Origin: Polyangium sp. 15x6
GTDB taxonomy: Bacteria; Myxococcota_A; Polyangia; Polyangiales; Polyangiaceae
Assembly (NCBI RefSeq): GCF_029960785.1
Contig: NZ_JASBQE010000028.1
Location: 1 to 64,000, forward strand
Length of the DNA stretch: 64,000 bases
Direction of reading: 5' to 3'
Shown here: positions 48,511 through 63,694 of the stretch, in pieces
Layout: every line of letters begins with the position of its first letter
Position numbering within the stretch: position 1 is the first letter of the stretch
Program-made: the position numbers and the translations under genes
The notes under the pieces: model-generated
Databases searched by the model: none
What the model was told of the DNA's origin: nothing
Seen by the model: the letters and a program-made list of their open reading frames with translations, nothing else

Positions 48511-49932
48511 ATGCCGTCGCATCCCCCCGACGAAGTCTTCGAGAGCGACCCCGCCGTGACGCCGGTCGTCTCGACCTTGCCCCCGCCGCCCGAGTCGCTG
48601 AACCCCGCGCGACGCGAGGCTCGCCTCGACCGCGTGCTCGACTTCGTTTCGTTTGTGGCCAAACCGATGCCGCTCTCGGTCTTCCTCGACGAGGCTCCGA
48701 AGCGCATCGCCGCCATCGTCCAGGCCGAGATCGTCTCGCTCTACCTGCTCGAGGGCGACGGCGACGCGCTCGTCCTTCGTGGCAACGTCGGTTTTCCCGT
48801 GGGCGCGCGCGGCACCGTGCGCATGTCCGTCGGCGAGGGCCTCACGGGCACGGCCGTCGCGACCATGCGGCCCGTCGCCGTCGTGAAGGCGCCCGGGGAT
48901 CAGCGCTGGCGCGCGTTCCCCGGCATCGACGAGGACCACTACCCCGTCTTCCTCGCCGTCCCGATCCTCGGCTTCGGCCGCGCGCTCGGCGCGATCGTCG
49001 TCCAGCGCTCGGGCGACAAGGCGTACCGCCCGAGCGACGTTCGCCTGCTCGTCGCGCTCACCGCGCCGATCGCCTCGGCGATCCGGCATGCCGAGGTGCT
49101 TCGGGAGCTGCGCGACAAGAAGCTTCGCCGCACGGGCGGCGGCACGCGCAAGGTCACGCTCCCCGGCGTCCCTTCGGTCCCTGGACGCTCGCTCGGCGCC
49201 GTCGCGGCCCTGCGCCGCCCGGCCACTTCACCGCAGCGCAAGGCCACGGCCGAGGACGCGAAGCTCTTGCGAGGTGCCTGGAGCGCGGCCGAGAAGGCTC
49301 TCTCGTCGCTCGTCGCCCGCGCGCAGAAGCTCGGGCTCTCGCGCGAGTCGGCGTTCCTCTCCACGTACGAGCTCATGATCGGCGACCTGCGGCTGCGTCA
49401 ACGCGCGTTCGAGCTCGTCGCCGAGGGCCACGGCGTCGCGCAGGCGCTCGGCCTCGTCGCGCGCGAGGGCGTGCGCGCGGCGAACGGCATCGTCGGCGAT
49501 CCCTTCCTGCAAGAGCGCGCGCGCGACATGGAAGACCTCTGCGACGCGCTCGTCATGCTCGCGACGCCGGATGCGCGCGCCGAGCTCCCGACGAAGGCCG
49601 TGCTCATCGGCGATCGGCTCACCGTCTTCGACCTCGTCGTCTCGGCGCGCACGCGTCCCGTGGGCGTCGTGCTCAGCGAGCGCGCCTCGGATCCGCGCAC
49701 GCCCGTGCTCTTGCGGCTCCTCGGCGTCCCGTCGATCACCCAGGTCGAGGGCCTCTTCCAGTGGGCGTCCCCCGGCGACGTGGCGCTGCTCGACGCGGAT
49801 CACGGCTTCCTCGTGATCAACCCGTCACGCGCGGAGATGGCCTCGATCCGCGCCGAGCGGAAGAAGGGCAAAGCGCCGTCGGACGCGTCCGAAACGACCG
49901 AGGCCGAGGCGGACAGCGGCGAGATGGAATGA
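48511..49932 (+). CDS. GAF domain fused to a degenerate PTS enzyme I N-terminal module
   Basis: A 473-aa cytoplasmic protein. Residues about 35-200 form a GAF domain (RLDRVLDFVSFVAKP, IVQAEIVSLYLLEG, VGEGLTGTAVATMRP). The rest follows the start of PtsP/EI: a helical HPr-binding-like region (KLLRGAWSAAEKALSSLVAR) and a swivelling beta domain (VGVVLSERASDP followed by TPVLLRLLGVPSI). In active enzyme I this segment reads GGxTSHxAIxAR with the phospho-His; here the His is absent and Asp/Pro occupies the spot. No PEP-binding barrel follows. It cannot act as a phosphotransferase and may be a ligand-sensing regulator. Confidence 0.75.
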   Translation: MPSHPPDEVFESDPAVTPVVSTLPPPPESLNPARREARLDRVLDFVSFVAKPMPLSVFLDEAPKRIAAIVQAEIVSLYLLEGDGDALVLRGNVGFPVGARGTVRMSVGEGLTGTAVATMRPVAVVKAPGDQRWRAFPGIDEDHYPVFLAVPILGFGRALGAIVVQRSGDKAYRPSDVRLLVALTAPIASAIRHAEVLRELRDKKLRRTGGGTRKVTLPGVPSVPGRSLGAVAALRRPATSPQRKATAEDAKLLRGAWSAAEKALSSLVARAQKLGLSRESAFLSTYELMIGDLRLRQRAFELVAEGHGVAQALGLVAREGVRAANGIVGDPFLQERARDMEDLCDALVMLATPDARAELPTKAVLIGDRLTVFDLVVSARTRPVGVVLSERASDPRTPVLLRLLGVPSITQVEGLFQWASPGDVALLDADHGFLVINPSRAEMASIRAERKKGKAPSDASETTEAEADSGEME

Positions 49933-51517: not shown

Positions 51518-52024
51518 ATGGCAGCCCTCGCTGGCCGAGTTTCCGTTCTCCTCGCGCTCGCGTTCGTCTGTCCCGCGTGCACCACGCTCGCCACGGGGCC
51601 GGATTGGACGGGGGGCGGGCTCGAAACGATCGGGCCTGCGCGGGCGGCCGAGCGCGAGGCTGTCGAGGAGCGTGAGCGACAGCGGCTCGCGCGCCAGCCG
51701 ACACGCATCGGCGCGCGCCACATCCTCGTCATGCACCAGCGCTCGCAACAGCGCCCCGAGGACGTGACGCGCACCCGCGAAGAAGCGAAGCAAAAGGCGC
51801 AGGAGTGCTTGCGCGCACTGCGCTCGGGCGCCGCATGGGAGTCGCTCGTCACCGAGTGCTCCGACGAGCCGGGGGCGGCCGAGCGCGGCGGGGATCTCGG
51901 CCAGTTCGAGCGCGGCGCCATGGTCAAGTCCTTCTCGGACGCGGCCTTCGGGCTCCAGATCAACGAGATCAGCGAAGTTGTCGAGACCGCTTACGGCTTT
52001 CACATCATCCAGCGCACCGAGTGA
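51518..52024 (+). CDS. Parvulin-type peptidyl-prolyl isomerase lipoprotein
   Basis: 168 aa. Signal and lipobox: MAALAGRVSVLLALAFVCPAC (Cys21). The rotamase domain (about 65-168) has GARHILVMH, CSDEPGAAERGGDLGQFERG and KSFSDAAFGLQINEISEVVE followed by TAYGFHIIQR, matching PpiC/SurA-type parvulins that assist envelope protein folding. There is no SurA-like chaperone arm, so it is a short stand-alone type. It starts 73 bp upstream-divergent from the radical SAM gene. Confidence 0.88.
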   Translation: MAALAGRVSVLLALAFVCPACTTLATGPDWTGGGLETIGPARAAEREAVEERERQRLARQPTRIGARHILVMHQRSQQRPEDVTRTREEAKQKAQECLRALRSGAAWESLVTECSDEPGAAERGGDLGQFERGAMVKSFSDAAFGLQINEISEVVETAYGFHIIQRTE

Positions 52025-52072: not shown

Positions 52073-54724
52073 ATGCAGGCGTGGAGGACGGAGGAGCACC
52101 ATCGACTGGCCCAGGAGCGCGAGCGCGTCCTTCGCTGGAAGGACTGGGGCCCCTACGTCGCGGAGCGCGCCTGGGGCACGGTGCGCGAGGACTACAGCGC
52201 GAGCGGCGATGCCTGGGGGTATTTCCCGCACGACCACGCGCGTAGCCGCGCCTATCGCTGGAACGAGGACGGCCTCGCGGGGATCTGCGATCGCACGCAG
52301 ATCCTCTGCCTCGCGCTCGCCCTGTGGAACGGCCGGGATGCCATTCTGAAAGAGCGCCTCTTCGGCGTCACCAACGCCGAGGGCAATCACGGCGAGGACG
52401 TCAAGGAAGTCTACCATTACGAAGACGCGACCCCGACGTCGAGTTACCTCCGTTTCCTCTACAAATACCCCCATCGCCGCTATCCCTACGAGGAGCTCGT
52501 CGCGGGAAACCGCATGCGCGGCGGCGACGAGCCCGAGCTCGAAACCTGGGACCTCGGCCTCTACGACGAGGGCCGCTACTTCGACGTCCGTGTCGAATAC
52601 GCGAAACGCACGCCGAATGACATCTTGATGGTCGTCACCGTCGAGAACCGCGGCCCCGAGGACGCCCCCCTTCATCTCCTGCCGCACCTCTGGTTCCGCA
52701 ACACCTGGTCGTGGGACGAGGTCGTCGTCGCGCCCCCCGAGATCCACGAAGGCGAGCGCGGCGAAGGGTTTTTCTCTCTTCGCTCCAGCCACCACGATCT
52801 CGGCTCCCATTACCTCTACATCGAGGGTGACGACACGACCCTCCTTTTCACGAACAACGAGACCAATACCGAGCGCCTCTACGGCTCGCCGTCGCGCACG
52901 CCCTACGTCAAGGACGCCTTCCACGCGCGGGTCGTCCACGGCGACGAATCCAGGACAAACCCCGAGGGCCGCGGCTCGAAGGCAGCGGCGTGGCGCGTCT
53001 TCAACGTCCCCGCCGGCGGCCGCGTCGTCCTCCGCGCGCGGCTCTGCCCCGGGCCCGAGCGGGCCCCGTTCGAGGGCTCGGACGAGCTCCTCGCGAAACG
53101 CAAGGCCGAGGCCGACGAGTTTTACCTGGCCATTCAAGGCCCGCACATGTCGGACGAGCGCCGATCGATCCAGCGCCAGGCCTCCGCGGGCTTGCTCTGG
53201 TCGATGCAGTTTTACCATTACGACGTCGACGTCTGGCTCCGCGGCGACGCGATCGCGCCGCCGGCCGCGCGGCTCCGCGGCCGGAACAAGGATTTCCGCC
53301 ACCTCTCGGTCGCGGACGTCATCTCCATGCCCGACAAGTGGGAATACCCCTGGTTCGCGGCCTGGGACCTCGCGTTCCATGCGCTCGCGCTCGCGCCGAT
53401 CGACATGGACCGCGCGAAAAACCAGCTCAAGCTGATGGTCAAGGAGTGGTACCAGCACCCGAACGGCCAGATCCCCGCCTATGAATGGGAGTTCGGCGAC
53501 CTCAATCCGCCGATCCTCGCCTGGGCCGCCTACCAGCTCTACAAGATCGAGCGCAAGCAGCGCGGCAAGGGCGACCGCCTCTTCCTCGAGCGCATGTTCC
53601 ACAAGCTGCTCATCAACTTCGCCTGGTGGGTGAACAAGCGCGACGCCGAGGGGAACAACGTCTTCGAGGGCGGCTTCCTCGGCCTCGACAACATCTCCGT
53701 CTTCGATCGCAGCGAGCCGCCCCCGCCCGGCATGAAGCTCGAACAGGCCGACGCCACCGCCTGGATGGCGATGTATTGCATCGACCTCATGCGCATCGCG
53801 CTCGAGCTCGCGATGGAGAACTCCGCGTACGAGGACGCCGCGAGCAAGTTCTTCGAGCATTTCCTCCGCATCGCCTACACCTTCCACCACGCCGAGCCGC
53901 CCGAGATCCCGCTCTGGGACGACGCCGAGGGGTTTTACTTCGACATCCTCACGATCCACGGACAGCCCCACCACCTGCCCGTGCGCTCCATGGTCGGCCT
54001 CATTCCGCTCTTCGCCGTGCACGTCATCGGCCCCGAGGTCTATCGCAAGCTCGACAACTTCCGCCGCCGCATGGAGTGGTTCCTCGGGAAAAACCCTCAC
54101 CTCGCCGAGGCCCTCGTCAAGCGCCCCGACGGCCGCTACGTCCTCACGGCCGTCCCGCCCGGCAAGCTCGAACGCGTGCTCGGCCACCTCTTCAACGAGG
54201 ACGAGTTCCTCTCGCCCTTCGGCCCGCGCTCCCTCTCGAAGGAGCACAAGAAGCGGCCCGTCGTCGTTTGGCAGGGCGAACGACGGCTCGAGGTCGGTTA
54301 CGAGCCGGGGGAATCGAAGAGCCGCATGAAAGGCGGAAACTCGAACTGGCGCGGGCCCGTCTGGATGCCGACGGCGTACATGATCTATCGCTCGCTGCTC
54401 CGCCTCGAGCACGGCTTCGGCGACATCCTGCGCGTCCCCGCCACGCGCACGCACGGGCCGCGCACGCTCGGCCAGGCCGCCGACGAGATCGCGGCCCGCA
54501 TCGTCGCCCTCTTCGAGCGTGGCCCCGACGGGAAAAGGCCCGTCTACGGCGACACCGACCTCTTCCAGCTCGACCCCCATTTCCGGGACAACCTTCTCTT
54601 TTACGAATACTTCCATGGGGACACCGGCGAGGGGCTCGGGGCCTCGCACCAGACCGGCTGGACGGGCCTCGTCGGGGATCTCGTGCTGCGACTCGAACGG
54701 CATCGGAGGCACGATTCGGCATGA
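52073..54724 (+). CDS. GH63-like glucosidase (MGH1 type)
   Basis: An 883-aa protein similar to bacterial and eukaryotic GH63 glucosidases. An N-terminal beta-rich half (about 1-350) includes [20 protein letters not shown] and [20 protein letters not shown]; the (alpha/alpha)6 barrel half has [50 protein letters not shown] and [15 protein letters not shown]. These are the GH63 core signatures. No signal peptide is seen, so it is likely cytoplasmic and acts on small alpha-glucosides. The stop overlaps the start of the pseudokinase gene by 4 bp (ATGA), a tight coupling to a signalling protein. Confidence 0.88.
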
Positions 54725-57700
54725 GCCGCCTGGGCAAAGGAGACGAGCGCGGGCAAACGACCCTCGCCGCCCTCCTCGCGTCTTCCATGCAAACCCCGGA
54801 GGCGGCTGCGCGCCTTTCGCTCGCGCTCGCGCTCGCGCTCGACGAGCTGCACCGCGCGGGCCGCGTCCACGGCGATCTGTCTCCCGCGACGATCCTCGTC
54901 GAGCCCGCGTCGGAGGACGCATTCTTCACGGATTCCGGCCCCCGCAGCGGGGCCGATGGCCGCGGGCCTTGCCGCGAAGCCTCGCTCGCGTATGCGGCCC
55001 CGGAGCGTACGAGGCGCGCGAGCCGCGGATTCGACGGGCGCGCGGATCTCTATTCGCTCGGCGCCGTCCTCTATGAAATGCTCGCGGGCGCGCCGCCGTT
55101 CGTCTCCGCCGACCCCCTCGCGCTCGCCCACGCGCACCTCGCGCGCGCGCCCGTGCCCGTGCACGAGCGCATGGCATCCGTCCCGCGCGTGCTCTCCGAC
55201 GTCGCGCAGAAGCTCCTCGCGAAGGCGCCCGCGGATCGTTATCAAACGGGCCGCGCGCTCGCGCTCGACCTCGAACGATTCTTGCGTGAAGGCCCCGAGG
55301 CCACGCCCTTTCCGCTCGGCGCCGGCGACGGCCCCGACGATCGGCGTATCTGGGACAAAACCTTCGGTCGCGAGGCCGAGGCCCGCGCGATTGCCGAATC
55401 CGCGCGGCGGGCCATGTCCGGCGCGCCCGAACTCGTGCTCGTCGTGGGCCCGGCCGGCTCCGGTAAATCCACGCTCGTCGCCGAGGCGCGCGAGCGAATC
55501 ATCCACCAGGGCGGCCTGTTCGTCGCGACCAAACCGAGCGAAGGCGCGGCGCCCCGCGCGCCCCTCGCCGAGGTCATGACGGCCCTCGCGCGCCGCGCCC
55601 TCACCGAGCCGCAAGAGCGCCTCGATGCGATTCGCGCCCGCCTCCTCGAGGCCCTCGACGGCCATGGCGCCGTGCTCGAAGACCTCGCGCCGGACGTCTC
55701 CCTCGTCCTCGGAAAATCACCCCCGCTCCCGGATCTCGGCGCCGCAGAATCACGAAGGCGCCTGGGACGCGCCGTTTCCGCCTTCCTCCGCGTCTTCTGC
55801 GCGCATTGGCCGCTCGTCGCCGTCTTTTTCGACGACCTCGATCGCGCCGATTCCGACACGCTCTCCATTCTCGGCGACGTCCTCGCCGAGGAAGGCCTCT
55901 CGCATCTGCTCGTCCTCGGCGCGGCGCACGAGGAAGATACCGCGCCCGCGCGGCCGCTCGGCGCGTTCCTCGAATCCATCGTCCCGCGCGGCGTCGCCCT
56001 TCAAAAGGTCCTCCTCGGCCCGCTCGAGCCCGAGGACGTCGGGCGCATCGTCGCGGACGTCCTCTCCGTGCCCGAGCCCGAGGTCGCGGCGCTCGCGCGC
56101 CTCTTGCACCGCAAATCGCGCGGCAATCCATTCCTCGTCCTGCACGTGCTCGACGCCCTCTTCTCCGAGGGCCTCGTCGATCGGGATCCTGCGACGAACG
56201 CCGTTCGCTGGGACGAACGGCGCATCCTCGAAGTGCCCATTCCGGACGACGCCGCCCGTTTCGTGGCCGACCGGCTGAGCAAGCTCTCCCCCGAGGCGCG
56301 CCGCGTCCTCGGCGCCGCGGCCGTGCTGGGCCACGGATTCGAGGAGGACAAACTCGACGCCGTGCTCGGCGCGCCCGAGGCGGGCCTCTCCGCGGCGCTC
56401 GCCGAGGCGATCGATCTCGGGATGATCGTCCCGGGGACCGGCACCTACCATTTCGTTCACGAAAAAGTGCGCGAGGCGGCTCGATCGCTCCTCGAAGAAG
56501 ACGAGCGGGCGCGCGTGCATCTCGCCATCGGTCGCGCCATGCGCGCCGAGCCCGGCGCCGCAGACGATCGGCTCTTCGAACTCGCCCACCATTTCCGCGA
56601 GGGCGCCTCGCTGCTCGACGACGAGAACGAGCGCCGCTCCGTCGCGCGCCTGCTCTTCGAGGCGGCCCGCAAGGCGCAATCGCAGGCTGCATTTCGCGTC
56701 GCCGTCGATTTCTACGACGCCTCGGCCGCCCTCCTCTCGGCGCCCGCGCTCGCGTCCGATCCCGCGTTCGCCGTCGCGCTTTTCTCCTCGCGGGCCGAAT
56801 GCGCGTACATCGAAGGCCATGCCGAGCGCGCGGAGGTGCTCTTCTCCGAGGCGCTCTCGCACGCGCAGACGCCCCTCGAACGAGCGCGCGTGCACGGGCA
56901 ACGCCTCTCCCTCCGGGTCTCGCGCGGCCGATACATGGACGCGATCGCCGCTGGACGCGAAGGTTTGTCCGAGCTCTCCGTCGTTTTGCCCGAGCGCGGG
57001 GCCGAGGCTGCGTCCCTCCCGGCGGCGCTCGCCGATATCGCGCGCCTCGTCGGCGGGCGTTCGCCGGAGGACCTCGCCCGCGCCCCGCGTATCGAAGATC
57101 CGCACGCCGTCGCGCAGCTCGATCTGCTCACGGCGCTCGTCCCGCCCACGTACATCGCCGATCAGGCCCTTTATCTCGTGGTCGTCGTGCGACTCGTCGC
57201 CGCGTGCGTCGAGCACGGCCACGCCGACGTCGCAGCGTATGCGTACGCGAGTTATGCCCTCATGCTGGCGATGATCCTCGGCGACGCGAAGGCCTCGCGG
57301 GCATTCTTCGACCTCGCGGTGCTGCTCGAAGATCGCATCGAAAACCCGGGGCTCCGCGGCAGGACGTCCTGGACCATCGGCGCATGCGCCACGCCGTTTT
57401 TGCCTGTCCGAGGCGCGCTCCCGTTCGTCGACCGCGGGCTCGTCCATAGCCTCGAAGTGGGCGACGTCCCGTACGTCTCGTATTCGCTCCACCTCGGCGT
57501 CGCCCTGCGATACTGGTCGGCCGATCCGCTCACCTCCGTGCGCGAGGCGTGGAGCAAAGCGACGGGGATCTTGCCGGACGTGCGGGATCCGATCGCCACG
57601 CACACGCTCGCCGCGCTCGGCCGGATGCTCCACGCCCTCGAAGGGCGCACGCAGGCGCCGACCTCGTTCGACGGCGACGATTTCGACGACGCGGCGTTCG

Positions 57701-59367
57701 TCCAGACGATCGAGCCGAGCTTCGGATATGCGGCGTGCATGCACCACGCCCTCCGGACGCAGCTCTGCCTGCTCCACGGCGATCTCGACGGCGCGCTCGT
57801 ATGGGCCGAGCGCACCGAGGGGCAGATGGCCGCGGGTATGTGGCTCTACCTCGAGACCTTCTCCACCTTCACCACCGCCCTCACATTCGCGGCGCGCCTC
57901 TCCTCCGGCGCGGACGAGGCCGAGCGCGCGCGCCTCCGGGAGCGCCTCGCGCCCCATCTCACGAAGCTCGGCGCCTGGGTCGCGCTTTATCCGGACCACT
58001 GGCTCCCGCTGCATCGCCTCGTTTCCGCGGAAATCAAGGTCGCGGACGGGCATCACGGCGAGGCCCGCGAGCTTTACGACGAGGCGATCGAGGCGGCCCG
58101 GAAAAACGGGTTCCTTCACCACGAGGCGCTCGCCTGCGAGCGCGCGGCGCATTATTACGCCGGCCGCGAGAGGCCCGAGCTCGCGCGGCCGTACCTCGAA
58201 GCCGCCATGCGCGCGTACGTACGCTGGGGCGCCACGGCGAAGGTGCGCGACCTCGAAGCGCGGCACCCCGACGTCTTCGGCGGAACATCGTCGGAAGATT
58301 GGGGGAGCGGCTCCGCGGACAAACCGACGCGCCACGCCGATCGTCCCTCGCGCGGCGGCCGGTCGCTCGACGTGATGGCCATCGTGCGCGCGGCGCAGGC
58401 CATTGCCGGCGAAATCGACCTCGATCGCCTGCTCGAACGCCTCCTCCGCACGGTCCTCGAAGTCGCGGGCGCCGATCGCGCCGCGCTCGTCCTCGTGCGC
58501 CGCGGTGAGCTCTTCGTCGGCGCCACGTTGACCGTCGACGGCGCGGACGTCGGCGCCATGCGCCCGCTCGCCGAGGCCTCGGGCGTCGCGCCGAGCGTCG
58601 TGCAATACGTCGCCCGCACGCGCGCGCCGATTGTCGTCGGTCGCGGCGTGGCTGGAACGCCGTTCGAGGCCGATCCGCACCTCGGCAGCGCCGCGCCCTG
58701 CTCCTTCCTCGGATTGCCGCTCGTCCACCGCGACGCGCTCTCGGGCGTCCTCTATCTCGAAAATCGCCTCGTCGAGGACGCATTCTCGGAGGACCGCGTC
58801 GAGCTCCTCTCGCTCCTCTCGTCGCAGGCGGCCATCGCGCTCGAAAATGCGATTCTCCTCGCCGACGTCCGGCGCCGGACGGACGACCTGGCGCGGGCAA
58901 ACGACGGCCTCCAGGCCGAGCTCTTTCGCCGGGCCAAGGCCGAGGCGGAGCGCGCGTCGTTCGAGCAGGCGATGATCGAAATGCAGCGCGCGCGCCTCGC
59001 CGAGCTCTCCGCGCCGCTCGTGCCGATCACCGACAACGTCATGGTGATCCCGCTCGTTGGCACGGTGGACGCCGCGCGCGCCGAGGACCTCCAGCGCGTC
59101 GCGCTCGACGGGGCGAGCAAGCGGGCCTTGCGCGCGCTCATCATCGACATCACGGGCGTGCGCGTGGTCGACAGCCACGTCGCGGGCCGCCTGCTCGACA
59201 CGGTGCGAGCCGTCGAATTGCTCGGCGCTGAAGTCGTGATCACTGGTATCCGCGGTGACGTCGCGCAGGCGCTCGTGAAGCTCGACATCGACTTCGGCGC
59301 GAAGGTCCCCACGCGGAGCACGCTCCAGGCGGGGATCGCGTATGCTCTCTCTCGCTGCCGACGCTAG
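54721..59367 (+). CDS. Pseudokinase-AAA-TPR-GAF-STAS signalling protein
   Basis: A 1548-aa protein. Residues about 15-190 resemble only the C-lobe of a Ser/Thr kinase: HGDLSPATIL (50-59) in place of HRDLKPxNIL, TDSG (70-73) in place of DFG, and YAAPERT, DLYSLGAVLYEMLAG. The Gly-rich loop and the VAIK Lys are missing, so it is a pseudokinase. An AAA ATPase follows with Walker A GPAGSGKS (243-250) and FFDDLDRADSD. A long TPR-like region (about 480-1200) leads to a GAF domain (about 1216-1390) and a C-terminal STAS domain (about 1426-1548) like stressosome RsbR: IDITGVRVVDSHVAGRLL. Its start overlaps the GH63-like gene stop. Confidence 0.88.
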   Translation: MSRLGKGDERGQTTLAALLASSMQTPEAAARLSLALALALDELHRAGRVHGDLSPATILVEPASEDAFFTDSGPRSGADGRGPCREASLAYAAPERTRRASRGFDGRADLYSLGAVLYEMLAGAPPFVSADPLALAHAHLARAPVPVHERMASVPRVLSDVAQKLLAKAPADRYQTGRALALDLERFLREGPEATPFPLGAGDGPDDRRIWDKTFGREAEARAIAESARRAMSGAPELVLVVGPAGSGKSTLVAEARERIIHQGGLFVATKPSEGAAPRAPLAEVMTALARRALTEPQERLDAIRARLLEALDGHGAVLEDLAPDVSLVLGKSPPLPDLGAAESRRRLGRAVSAFLRVFCAHWPLVAVFFDDLDRADSDTLSILGDVLAEEGLSHLLVLGAAHEEDTAPARPLGAFLESIVPRGVALQKVLLGPLEPEDVGRIVADVLSVPEPEVAALARLLHRKSRGNPFLVLHVLDALFSEGLVDRDPATNAVRWDERRILEVPIPDDAARFVADRLSKLSPEARRVLGAAAVLGHGFEEDKLDAVLGAPEAGLSAALAEAIDLGMIVPGTGTYHFVHEKVREAARSLLEEDERARVHLAIGRAMRAEPGAADDRLFELAHHFREGASLLDDENERRSVARLLFEAARKAQSQAAFRVAVDFYDASAALLSAPALASDPAFAVALFSSRAECAYIEGHAERAEVLFSEALSHAQTPLERARVHGQRLSLRVSRGRYMDAIAAGREGLSELSVVLPERGAEAASLPAALADIARLVGGRSPEDLARAPRIEDPHAVAQLDLLTALVPPTYIADQALYLVVVVRLVAACVEHGHADVAAYAYASYALMLAMILGDAKASRAFFDLAVLLEDRIENPGLRGRTSWTIGACATPFLPVRGALPFVDRGLVHSLEVGDVPYVSYSLHLGVALRYWSADPLTSVREAWSKATGILPDVRDPIATHTLAALGRMLHALEGRTQAPTSFDGDDFDDAAFVQTIEPSFGYAACMHHALRTQLCLLHGDLDGALVWAERTEGQMAAGMWLYLETFSTFTTALTFAARLSSGADEAERARLRERLAPHLTKLGAWVALYPDHWLPLHRLVSAEIKVADGHHGEARELYDEAIEAARKNGFLHHEALACERAAHYYAGRERPELARPYLEAAMRAYVRWGATAKVRDLEARHPDVFGGTSSEDWGSGSADKPTRHADRPSRGGRSLDVMAIVRAAQAIAGEIDLDRLLERLLRTVLEVAGADRAALVLVRRGELFVGATLTVDGADVGAMRPLAEASGVAPSVVQYVARTRAPIVVGRGVAGTPFEADPHLGSAAPCSFLGLPLVHRDALSGVLYLENRLVEDAFSEDRVELLSLLSSQAAIALENAILLADVRRRTDDLARANDGLQAELFRRAKAEAERASFEQAMIEMQRARLAELSAPLVPITDNVMVIPLVGTVDAARAEDLQRVALDGASKRALRALIIDITGVRVVDSHVAGRLLDTVRAVELLGAEVVITGIRGDVAQALVKLDIDFGAKVPTRSTLQAGIAYALSRCRR

Positions 59368-59489: not shown

Positions 59490-61631
59490 ATGCGAACGAC
59501 GTTCTTTCTTCACGCATGGGTTTTGGCGCTCGGGCTCGCCTCCGTGGGTTGCGGCGGGCCCGAGGTGCCGCGGCGCGATTGCACGACCGTGATCTGGGCC
59601 GAACCCGGCTCGAAGGGCGACATACGCGTCGAGGGGAGCTGGGACGACTGGGCCGAGGCGAAGCCCCTCACGCAGCGCGACGATGGATGGTTTCTGCTCC
59701 CATTGAATTTTTCTCCCGGCGAGTATGGATACCGCATCGTTCGCGACGGCGAGCGATCGCTCGATCGGCTCAATCCTCTGACCACGTGGAAGGGCGAAGA
59801 GGAGGTGTCGCTCGTGATCGCCGAGAGCTGCGGCGCGCCCGAGATTCGTATCGACGCGGTCGAGGTCTCCGGCGACGAGGTCACGGTGAGCGGTGTTTTT
59901 CTGGCCGCGCCCGAGGGAGCCGCGCTCGACCCCGCATCGCTACGGGCCGAGCTCCGCGCCGGCGGCGATATTTTGCCATCGAACGCGCAGGCGTCCGATG
60001 GGCGATTCACGTTCGTCGCGCGTGGCCTCGGCCGCGGCAAACATACCTTCACCCTTCGCGGCGCCGACGAATCCGGCAACGAGGCGAGCCCCGAGATCGC
60101 CGTCGCGTGGATCGATCCGGCCCAGGCCTCCTGGGACGAGGGCCTTTTGTATCACCTCATGATCGACCGTTTCCGGGGCGACGGAGGCGCGCCGCTCGCG
60201 CCGTTGCCCCCGGACAAATCCGGCTCGCGCGCGGGAGGCACGCTCGACGGCGTGCGCGCGGAAATCGAGCGCGGCACGTTCGACGAGCTCGGCGTCACGG
60301 CGATCTGGATTTCGCCCGCCTACACGAATCCGATCGAGGTCCGCGAGGGCCGCGGCGACGGCCGGCCCTATGAAGGATATCATGGCTACTGGCCGCTCGA
60401 ATCACGCGGGGTCGAGCCGCGGATCGGCGGCGAGGACGCCCTCCGCGCCATGGTCGACGAGGCCCATCGGCACGGGATCCGCGTGATCTTCGACCTCGTG
60501 CCGAACCACGTCTACGAGCACAACGAGCGATACATCCAGAACCGGAACAAGGGCTGGTTCAACGACGGCGTCGACAAATGCGTGTGTGGCTCGCCCGGCT
60601 GCGGCTGGAGCGAGAAGCTCCCCACGTGCTGGTTCACCTCGTACATGCCCGACGTGCGATTCGAGCACCCCGATTCGATGCGCGCCGAGGTCGACGACGC
60701 CGTCTTCTGGATGAAGGAGTTCGACGCGGACGGCGTGCGCATCGACGCCGTCCCCATGATGCCGCGCGCGGCCACGCGCCGGATCTCGCACGCGCTCGAT
60801 CGCCTCGCGACGGGCAAGGACGCGCTCTTTTCGATCGGCGAGGTCTTCACCGGCCCCGGCGCGATCGGCATCGAGAGCATCCGGTATTTCCTCGGCCCGC
60901 ATACCCTCTCCGGCGCCTTCGATTTCCCGCTCATGTGGAAGCTCCGTGAAGCATTTGGCCACGACCGCGGCAGCCTCTCCGAGCTCGAAGAAATTCTCGT
61001 CTCGACCGACGCAGCCATCGAAGGCTCGGGCGCGGCGCTCGGCCGCATGATCGACAACCACGACACCTCGCGGTTCGTCTCGGAGGTCACGGGCGACGGC
61101 GCGAACGACCCCTGGTACGACAAACCCGCGCAGCCCACGGATCCGGTCGTGTATGCGCGGGCGAAAATGGCGCTCGCGTTCATTTTGACGCTGCACGGCC
61201 TGCCGGTGCTTTATTACGGCGACGAGATTGCGCTCGCCGGCGCGGGGGATCCGGACTCGCGGCGGGTGATGCCGGATCCCGCCACCGTCGGGCCGCTGCA
61301 ATCCGAGGTGCGGGACCTCGTCCGCCGGCTCGGCCAGCTGCGCCGCTGCTCGCCTGCGCTCCGCACGGGCACGCGCAGGCCCATCGTGGCGACGAAGGAC
61401 GAATATGCTTATTTGCGCGACGCGGGGGATGGGGATCCGGTGCTCGTGTTTTTCGCGCGCAAGACGACGCTCGTCTCCGTGCCGACCGGCGCCGTGCCGC
61501 TCGGCAGCTACGTCGACGTCATGACCGGCGAGACGATCGAAATCACCGCCGGCGGCGCCGTCCCGCTCGAAGCCCTCTCCTTCCGCGTGCTCGTGCGCGC
61601 GGGGAGCCCTTGCCGCAACCCTTCACCCTGA
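59490..61631 (+). CDS. Secreted GH13 alpha-amylase-like lipoprotein with N-terminal carbohydrate-binding module
   Basis: A 713-aa protein. The signal ends at SVGC (Cys21). The first 120 residues (VIWAEPGSKGDIRVEGSWDD, followed by PLNFSPGEYGYRIVRDG) look like a CBM48/CBM20-type starch-binding beta-sandwich, followed by a second beta domain (about 115-205). The catalytic barrel has LLYHLMIDRFRGD, FDLVPNHVYEHN, the nucleophile Asp419 in DGVRIDAV, the acid Glu451 in SIGEVFTG and Asp525 in MIDNHDTS. It should cleave alpha-1,4-glucans outside the cell. The start is supported by GAGGAG just before ATG 59490. It is followed after 11 nt by a second GH13 gene. Confidence 0.9.
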   Translation: MRTTFFLHAWVLALGLASVGCGGPEVPRRDCTTVIWAEPGSKGDIRVEGSWDDWAEAKPLTQRDDGWFLLPLNFSPGEYGYRIVRDGERSLDRLNPLTTWKGEEEVSLVIAESCGAPEIRIDAVEVSGDEVTVSGVFLAAPEGAALDPASLRAELRAGGDILPSNAQASDGRFTFVARGLGRGKHTFTLRGADESGNEASPEIAVAWIDPAQASWDEGLLYHLMIDRFRGDGGAPLAPLPPDKSGSRAGGTLDGVRAEIERGTFDELGVTAIWISPAYTNPIEVREGRGDGRPYEGYHGYWPLESRGVEPRIGGEDALRAMVDEAHRHGIRVIFDLVPNHVYEHNERYIQNRNKGWFNDGVDKCVCGSPGCGWSEKLPTCWFTSYMPDVRFEHPDSMRAEVDDAVFWMKEFDADGVRIDAVPMMPRAATRRISHALDRLATGKDALFSIGEVFTGPGAIGIESIRYFLGPHTLSGAFDFPLMWKLREAFGHDRGSLSELEEILVSTDAAIEGSGAALGRMIDNHDTSRFVSEVTGDGANDPWYDKPAQPTDPVVYARAKMALAFILTLHGLPVLYYGDEIALAGAGDPDSRRVMPDPATVGPLQSEVRDLVRRLGQLRRCSPALRTGTRRPIVATKDEYAYLRDAGDGDPVLVFFARKTTLVSVPTGAVPLGSYVDVMTGETIEITAGGAVPLEALSFRVLVRAGSPCRNPSP

Positions 61632-61642
61632 CGGGTCTCCGA

Positions 61643-63694
61643 ATGAAACTTTCGACGAACACGTTCACAGCGCTCGCCCTCTCGGGCCTCCTCGTCGCGC
61701 CTTTGCTCGGCGCGGCGTCCTGCTCGAGCGACGACCTCAATGGTTATCAGCCGCCCGATGGATTCGGAGGCTACGATCCGGGGGAAAAACCCCCGGTGCT
61801 CAGCGGCTCCGGCTCCGGCGTCGGCGCGGGCGGCCCCGGCCAGGGCGGCGCGGGCGGCGGCGAGCCCCCGGGGCCGCCCATGTGTGACGACAGCTTGAAG
61901 CGCTGCGATTACCTCTTCACGCTCGCCGACATGGGCCAGAGCAGCGTGGTCGTGCGCGGAAACTTCGCGGCCGACGGCTGGGACGTCGGCGTCCCGCTGG
62001 AGAAGGCGAACGGGCAATGGGAAGCCACCGTCCCGATCCCCTACAACCAGCCCGTCCAGTACAAGTTCGTCATCGACGGGAGCAACTGGATCAACGATCC
62101 GGGCAACCCGAACACGATCGATGACGGGTTTGGCGGGAAAAATAGCCTCGTCTCGCCGACGACCTGCGATCCCTGGACGTGCGACGATCCGCCGGAGGAC
62201 AGCCCCGTCGAGGCCTGGCGCGACGCGGTCCTTTATTTCGTCTTCGTGGACCGCTTCCTCGACGGCGACGCCTCGAACAACGGCGCGCCGGTGCCGAACG
62301 TCCCGCAGGCGTCCAATTACCAGGGCGGCGACTGGCAGGGCGTCATCAACAAGATCAAGGACGGTTATTTCACGAAGCTCGGCGTGAACTCGCTCTGGCT
62401 CACGGTCCCGATCGACAACACCGACCTCGCTGGATTCGGCAACGACGGCAAGAACTACAGCGCCTACCACGGCTACTGGCCGACGGATTTCTACAAGGCC
62501 GAGGAGCGTTTCGGCACGATGGCGAAGCTCAAGGAGCTCGTCGACGAGGCGCACAAGGTGAACATCACCGTCCTCATCGATTACGCAGCGAACCACGCGC
62601 ACGACTCGGCCCAGGTCTACAAGGACAACGCGAGCTGGTTCTGGCCGAACACGAACGGCAGCGGCGGCAACTGCGTCTGCGGCGAGGGCTGCTCCTGGGA
62701 CGACCCCGCGACCACCGAGAAATGCTGGTTCACGCCGTACCTGCCGGATTTCAATTACGAGAATGCGGCGGCGCGTAAGTACAGCATCGACAACATGGTC
62801 TGGTGGTGGCAGCAGACGGGCATCGACGGCTTCCGCCTCGACGCGCTCAAGCACATGCACATGTCGTGGCTGACGGAGCTCCGCTCGCGCGTGACGGCCG
62901 AGATCGACTCGGTCACGGGCAAGCATTTTTACATGGTCGGCGAGACGTACACGGGCAACAAGTCGCTCATCAAGAAATACGTCAATCCGTCCACCATGCT
63001 CGACGGACAGTTCGATTTCCCGCTCCGCGCCGAGATCTGCTCGAAGGTCCTCATGCGCCAGGGCACGATGCAAGACCTCGAAGGCTTCCTGAACGGCAAC
63101 GACGACGCCTATGGCAATGGCGTCATGAGCACGTTCATCGGCAATCACGACCTGCCCCGCGTCATTCACCTGGCCCAGCAAACCCCGCTCTGGAGCGACG
63201 CCTGGGACGGCGGCAAGAACATGAACTGGCAAAACCAGCCGGGTTTGCCCTCCGGGACGGACGCATTCGAGCGCATGGCGAACGGGTTCACGCTCATCAT
63301 GACCACGCGCGGCGTGCCGCTCATCTATTACGGCGACGAGATCGGCCTGCCCGGCGCGGGTGACCCGGACAACCGGCGTTTCATGCAATGGAACGGCTAC
63401 TCCGCCGGTCAAACCCTGCTACGCACGCACCTCGAAAAGCTCGGGCAGATCCGAAAGGATCACATCGCGCTCCGTCGAGGCAAGCGCTCGTCGCTCTGGG
63501 CCTCGGCCGATACGATGGCCTACAAGATGGTGCACGCCACCGAGACGGTCTACATCGCCATCAACCGCGGGGACATGCAGGGCTCCGTCGGGAACCTGCC
63601 GAGCGGCAACCTCACGAACCTGCTGACGGGTCAGAGCGTGAGTGGTCCCACTGTAAACCTTCCGCCACGCAGCTCGATGATTCTCGTGCAGTAA
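61643..63694 (+). CDS. Second secreted GH13 alpha-amylase-like lipoprotein
   Basis: A 683-aa protein with lipobox ASC (Cys27) and a Gly/Ser linker (about 40-75). A starch-binding-like module (about 85-180: VVVRGNFAADGWDVGVPLEK, VQYKFVIDGSNWINDPGN) precedes the barrel. Catalytic residues: Asp400 in GIDGFRLDALK, Glu434 in MVGETYTG and Asp503 in FIGNHDLPR. A Cys-rich insert (CVCGEGCSWDDPATTEKCWF) parallels CVCGSPGCGW in the upstream enzyme, which supports a duplication. The catalytic triad is intact. The C-terminal domain ends with PPRSSMILVQ. Confidence 0.9.
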   Translation: MKLSTNTFTALALSGLLVAPLLGAASCSSDDLNGYQPPDGFGGYDPGEKPPVLSGSGSGVGAGGPGQGGAGGGEPPGPPMCDDSLKRCDYLFTLADMGQSSVVVRGNFAADGWDVGVPLEKANGQWEATVPIPYNQPVQYKFVIDGSNWINDPGNPNTIDDGFGGKNSLVSPTTCDPWTCDDPPEDSPVEAWRDAVLYFVFVDRFLDGDASNNGAPVPNVPQASNYQGGDWQGVINKIKDGYFTKLGVNSLWLTVPIDNTDLAGFGNDGKNYSAYHGYWPTDFYKAEERFGTMAKLKELVDEAHKVNITVLIDYAANHAHDSAQVYKDNASWFWPNTNGSGGNCVCGEGCSWDDPATTEKCWFTPYLPDFNYENAAARKYSIDNMVWWWQQTGIDGFRLDALKHMHMSWLTELRSRVTAEIDSVTGKHFYMVGETYTGNKSLIKKYVNPSTMLDGQFDFPLRAEICSKVLMRQGTMQDLEGFLNGNDDAYGNGVMSTFIGNHDLPRVIHLAQQTPLWSDAWDGGKNMNWQNQPGLPSGTDAFERMANGFTLIMTTRGVPLIYYGDEIGLPGAGDPDNRRFMQWNGYSAGQTLLRTHLEKLGQIRKDHIALRRGKRSSLWASADTMAYKMVHATETVYIAINRGDMQGSVGNLPSGNLTNLLTGQSVSGPTVNLPPRSSMILVQ

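Follow-up and report, generated by a model that had tools for sequence, protein, structure and literature searches.

What does a large regulatory protein do when its gene sits between those of a glycoside hydrolase and two alpha-amylase family enzymes? The question is raised by a stretch of 64,000 nucleotides from Polyangium sp. 15x6 (contig NZ_JASBQE010000028.1, positions 1–64,000; hereafter the window). The regulator gene, named REG here, lies at 54721–59367 on the plus strand, as do the neighbouring genes and the domains given below. As had been proposed, its frame is uninterrupted from the ATG at 54721 and encodes 1548 aa, the stop codon being included in the coordinates. The ATGA at its start overlaps the stop of the hydrolase gene (52073–54724).

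The protein begins with the C-lobe of a kinase without its N-lobe (54721–55320), followed by an ATPase, more precisely a STAND nucleotide-binding and oligomerisation region (55333–56580), and a helical, TPR-like repeat region with a fold like MalT domain III (56581–58386). Behind these come a GAF domain (58417–58842), a helix joining GAF to STAS (58849–59010) and an RsbR-type STAS domain (59011–59364); the segment RLAELSAPLVPITD (58993–59034) continues from this helix into the STAS domain. Pfam gave matches to AAA_16 (E 1e-25), GAF (E 6e-16) and STAS (E 6e-15), and these E-values, together with those of the Listeria RsbR alignment described below, put the domain matches far from chance. The architecture in the original prediction, with a kinase lobe and intact ATPase, GAF and STAS domains, is thus secure. 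It missed the STAND switch and the TPR-like sensor at the centre of REG.

The kinase part had been described as a degenerate C-lobe with HGD, DSG and no VAIK Lys. The first two motifs are present (HGDLSPATIL at 54868–54897 and DSG within TDSG at 54928–54939), and the N-lobe is wholly gone. The Pfam Pkinase model is matched over positions 85–256 of 263 only (E 5e-12), and PknB, the best PDB kinase for REG, enters the alignment only at its residue 111. The N-lobe, Gly loop and VAIK Lys included, is therefore absent and not merely mutated. Alignment with 30 other kinase-ATPase frames from the same genome likewise showed no N-lobe residues in REG, and placed it beside the STAS-tailed L018 as lacking the N-lobe. 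In the six Polyangium orthologues the HRD Asp persists throughout as HGD. The catalytic Asn site holds Thr in five, REG included, and Val in one, while the DFG site reads DSG in two, DAG in three and EV with a deletion in one. With the N-lobe missing, Asn replaced by Thr and DFG by DSG, the REG kinase is almost certainly dead. A link between kinase death and STAS tails was considered and found no support: the full set of Lys, Asp, Asn and Asp survives in 5/13 STAS-tailed frames vs 9/16 other frames (6/16 when the whole DFG must be present). Dead kinases are thus common with and without such a tail.

The central region, residues 205–1222, was modelled from 59 aligned relatives with a mean pLDDT of 88.5, giving a NOD fold and then a TPR superhelix. 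The best Foldseek match of this model was 6mfv (E 1e-9), a STAND-TPR crystal structure named PH0952 in PMC6468293, and the second was Avs3. VIA-align ranked MalT domain III first (Z 21.9). Over the NOD it gave 8bob_C, a maltose-system regulator entry from a MalT study (Z 19.1), and it also returned 6mfv (Z 18.3) and Apaf-1 (Z 16.4). Rap proteins scored Z 20.2 on the helical part, near MalT domain III, so the sensor match by itself is unspecific. Walker A (55447–55473), Walker B (55825–55851), the GxP motif (56119–56139) and the winged-helix His motif (56446–56475) are intact in all six orthologues and invariant or nearly so over the 59 aligned members. The nSTAND1 model scores above its Pfam cut-off in REG, whereas TPR is matched in Pfam weakly and under the cut-off. 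A PDB search with the 59-member profile of the ATPase-TPR part found no STAND protein, its hits being generic P-loop chains and a single TPR chain; motifs and fold are therefore what identifies the region. On that footing the prediction that residues 205–1222 form a STAND switch with a TPR-like sensor is well supported. The proposal of a scaffold governed by ligand binding and nucleotide hydrolysis stands as far as the ATPase motifs are concerned. A STAND switch with such a sensor suggests ligand-gated oligomerisation in place of a passive scaffold. Serine-threonine kinases are listed among bacterial STAND proteins in PMC6468293, and MalT is described as being activated by maltotriose via its arm and sensor in PMC4381067.

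Selection on REG was estimated from 15 pairs of orthologues (NG86, ratio of summed values). Mean dN/dS was 0.25 for the kinase lobe, 0.34 for the NOD, 0.37 for the TPR region, 0.28 for GAF, 0.11 for the linker helix and 0.16 for STAS. All domains are under purifying selection (0.11 to 0.37), strongest in linker and STAS; the dead kinase lobe is therefore maintained, and constraint is highest at the output end. REG thus offers a naturally occurring kinase domain that has lost its whole N-lobe and is nonetheless under selection.

The gene order prolyl isomerase, (hydrolase), REG, amy1, amy2 is found in 6/6 Polyangium genomes, the window included. In the window the PpiC-type prolyl isomerase, a neighbour in all six, lies at 51518–52024. 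Amy1 (59490–61631) is an alpha-amylase family enzyme with an N-terminal glycogen-binding-like domain and amy2 (61643–63694) a second member of that family. The hydrolase matches PF22422 (MGH1-like; E 4e-24), with the GH63 Pfam model below cut-off and no PDB match at E 0.01, and is best described as an MGH1-like (GH63-like) glycoside hydrolase. Both amylases start with what we take, judging by eye, to be lipoprotein-like signal sequences; the products of these enzymes would therefore need import before being sensed. A promoter scan found no sigma-70-like site, and terminator-like sites occurred at chance level. Elsewhere in the window, a 473 aa protein (48511–49932) matches GAF and the N-terminal part of PEP-utilisers. 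It resembles a PtsP without the C-terminal PEP-binding domain.

The amylase pair adjoins REG in all six genomes and the GH63-like gene in five. In the sixth (G088) that gene is cut in frame to a 21-codon remnant (8389–8454 of L086), which still overlaps the REG start through ATGA, so the start-stop overlap has outlived the enzyme. The overlap predicted with GH63 therefore holds in the window, and the coupling to the enzyme itself does not hold in G088. Nor did the expectation of the same fusion beside GH63 in related genomes hold outside the genus: across the order, 17 other genomes gave 18 GH63-like loci, and REG was absent from the flanks (up to 1.5 kb) of all of them; the downstream flank of one locus, L058, is cut by the contig end. 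With the enzyme deleted in one genome and REG at 0/18 other loci, we rejected GH63 as a fixed REG partner. Relatives of amylase 1 occur in 55/98 genomes of the family, its own genus included. Upstream of 20 amylase loci outside Polyangium, several of them with short upstream sequence, neither REG nor the hydrolase was found (0/20), nor did these loci show a shared regulator ahead of their amylase genes. At three of the 20 loci a complete Ser/Thr kinase lies directly upstream of the amylase 1 relative (L174 5321–6877, L176 6019–8001 and L179 5756–8065); these kinases gave no AAA, GAF or STAS matches and showed no STAND parts. From these flanks, the likeliest history is that the amylase pair is the older part and that REG and the hydrolase were added to it within the Polyangium lineage.

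The predicted character of the output end was borne out. The STAS domain aligns with full-length Listeria RsbR chains at E 8e-24 to 4e-23 and has RsbR as its nearest match (E about 1e-23), ahead of RsbS (2e-9) and SpoIIAA (5e-4), and REG has an ELS-type linker as in Listeria RsbR. In this alignment VVDT becomes VVDS at the first phospho-site, with Ser1485 (59173–59175) at the position of the first RsbR Thr, and AQT becomes AQA at the second, with Ala1517 (59269–59271). The second RsbR Thr is T205 in B. subtilis. A model of residues 1216–1548 (pLDDT 87, pTM 0.56) has an RsbR-type fold and matches the Listeria stressosome best, with YtvA and RsbS also among the matches. GAF and STAS are joined in it by a 73-residue helix, and Ser1485 (model residue 270) lies after this helix, at the start of helix 270–285. 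Site 1 is Ser in four and Thr in two of the six orthologues, and site 2 is Ala in all six.

RsbR-like STAS matches are very numerous over many contigs of the REG genome (G000), and 27 domains were sampled (30 rows, from which two RsbS and a duplicate were removed). Thirteen of the 27 carry Ser or Thr at site 1; of these, 12 have Thr at site 2 and REG alone has Ala. In the other 14, site 1 has been lost to Ala, Glu, Ile, Gly, Pro or Arg. With about half of the sampled domains lacking the phospho-residue, phosphorylation need not be the general output. Genetics in B. subtilis also found signalling without phosphorylation, according to PMC3944199.

Candidate partners lie in two rsb-like clusters of the same genome, apart from REG. 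The cluster C42 holds two RsbR-like genes and RsbS-like, RsbT-like and RsbX-like genes, and C261 holds RsbR-, RsbS-, RsbT- and RsbX-like genes; the RsbX-like label is a reading by eye in both. The RsbS of C261 matches PDB RsbS (E 5e-24), and that of C42 (L130 4939–5343) has Ala (VIDA) in place of the RsbS phospho-Ser. The RsbT naming rests on the HATPase_c_2 domain and gene order, the proteins matching SpoIIAB weakly in the PDB, or nothing. All six Polyangium genomes have RsbT-like matches of the C261 kind, and for the C42 protein the other five have only matches of about 40–49% identity. The contig of the window itself gave no RsbT-like match. The existence of the two clusters makes the predicted stressosome-like output of REG plausible, and from the sequence it is reasonable to suppose that REG may feed a candidate RsbT-type partner via Ser1485.

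The same STAS domain could instead act with a SpoIIAB-type kinase, or with another paralogue, in a plain anti-sigma partner switch that involves no stressosome shell, the amylase locus being incidental. The genome has forty HATPase_c_2 matches, most in long frames and the short ones including proteins of the two rsb-like clusters. STAS domains without a phospho-residue are common, and the absence of REG from the amylase loci of other genera would suit an incidental location. We nevertheless regard this account as unlikely, though worth keeping in view, in the light of the closer match to RsbR than to RsbS or SpoIIAA and of the ELS-type linker.

REG belongs to a family that is large in its own genome. 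The 29 kinase-ATPase-TPR-GAF frames examined are a subset of more than 29 matches of the kinase-ATPase kind. Thirteen of them, REG included, end in STAS and 11 carry a histidine-kinase motif, while two (L026 and L030) have neither by pattern, one (L015) was not classified and two (L027 and L028) are cut by contig ends. The latter two and L016 are closely similar kinase-ATPase paralogues, two of them stopping at contig ends (C210 and C33), as might be expected if the assembly had broken at recent duplicates. The 12 further STAS-tailed copies overturn the idea that the arrangement is not known, and other genera of the family have STAS-tailed relatives as well (L087, L088 and L090–L093). On a tree of 59 members, built by a quick method and with long-branch warnings, the STAS label needs six changes, at least five of them forced by supported branches. 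STAS and histidine-kinase tails thus seem to have been swapped several times on one kinase-STAND-TPR-GAF chassis. The REG orthologues form a Polyangium-only clade of six with SH-aLRT 100 and a long stem.

Given this abundance of frames with STAS or histidine-kinase ends, and the constraint on the dead C-lobe (dN/dS 0.25), REG might partner active paralogues, co-oligomerising with STAND kinases via the ATPase and tuning their kinase or histidine-kinase output. The long stem and an identity to the paralogues of only 25–35% in the ATPase-TPR part argue against mixed oligomers, and we hold this proposal to be doubtful. That REG is a decaying gene hitch-hiking with the hydrolase genes is very improbable: the N-lobe is lost, DFG is drifting and the ATPase and TPR parts change fastest, but the frame is full-length in all six species, dN/dS is well below 1 in every domain and REG has been retained where the GH63-like gene was deleted. 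Hardly credible at all is an anti-phage STAND (Avs-like) protein, since, despite the Avs3 match and the PADLOC kinase models that match REG, the PADLOC matches are generic and on the kinase part, bar one weak MkoA stretch, and the neighbours in 6/6 Polyangium genomes are sugar enzymes.

The reading that we prefer, at a probability of about 0.5, is that REG is a MalT-like STAND sensor with a dead kinase at its front and an RsbR-type STAS domain that gives output into partner switching. A cue, plausibly maltodextrin freed by the neighbouring enzymes, would bind the TPR sensor, upon which the STAND switch would exchange ADP for ATP and oligomerise. The dead C-lobe may offer a surface for docking or for autoinhibition. 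Once clustered, the GAF-helix-STAS ends would alter their binding, or their phosphorylation by an RsbT-type kinase, and alpha-glucan status would in this way enter partner switching. That REG might sense maltodextrin is guessed from the neighbouring genes and from the parallel with MalT. Against the ligand reading counts that the ATPase-TPR region is common to the 59 aligned relatives, and against a link to the locus that the amylase pairs of other genera do without REG.

A bolder and rather improbable version would have a sugar-gated STAND oligomer directly seed or remodel a stressosome. Maltodextrin would multimerise REG via the NOD so that a ring of STAS domains is presented and alpha-glucan supply is passed to partner switching, with the dead lobe as a regulatory face and no shut-off at the second site. 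If true, two large signalling assemblies would be tied together in one polypeptide. To our knowledge, most stressosome sensors and bacterial STAND kinases have no known ligand. As REG unites both kinds of sensor and lies next to enzymes that yield an obvious candidate ligand, the ligand question becomes testable here.

REG shares the switch motifs, NOD fold, TPR-like sensor and alpha-glucan gene context with the pair formed by E. coli MalT and PH0952. Unlike both it adds a dead kinase in front and GAF and STAS behind, and the C-terminal LuxR-type DNA-binding domain of MalT proper is absent, the C-terminus being GAF-STAS. With RsbR and YtvA (Listeria 7b0u and B. subtilis) it has the helical linker, the STAS fold and the phospho-residue of site 1 in common. 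It differs in the Ala at site 2, in its 1548 aa compared with 278 aa for the Listeria RsbR chain, and in a location outside any rsb cluster.

A kinase ahead of a MalT-like module, as in REG, is also seen in a M. tuberculosis protein that is presumably PknK. The accessible part of a 2005 survey describes this joining, and also kinases fused with GAF and histidine-kinase parts, which have the same kinase-GAF chassis as REG; a STAS end like that of REG is not described there for these kinases (PMC1262709). In the titles and abstract openings searched, with most subscription journals out of reach, the full kinase-STAND-GAF-STAS set was not named. A 2010 study of Sorangium cellulosum, as far as its accessible text goes, reports 71 COG1366 proteins, some fused to kinases, the likeness to REG described there being kinase and STAS in one protein (PMC2887360). 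Together with the paralogues in the same genome, these fusions rule out the uniqueness of the arrangement. As the family in the REG genome, the Sorangium fusions and the surveyed kinases indicate, within what those two sources describe, the ground plan is already known, and the STAS-tailed version without an N-lobe is a variant of it.
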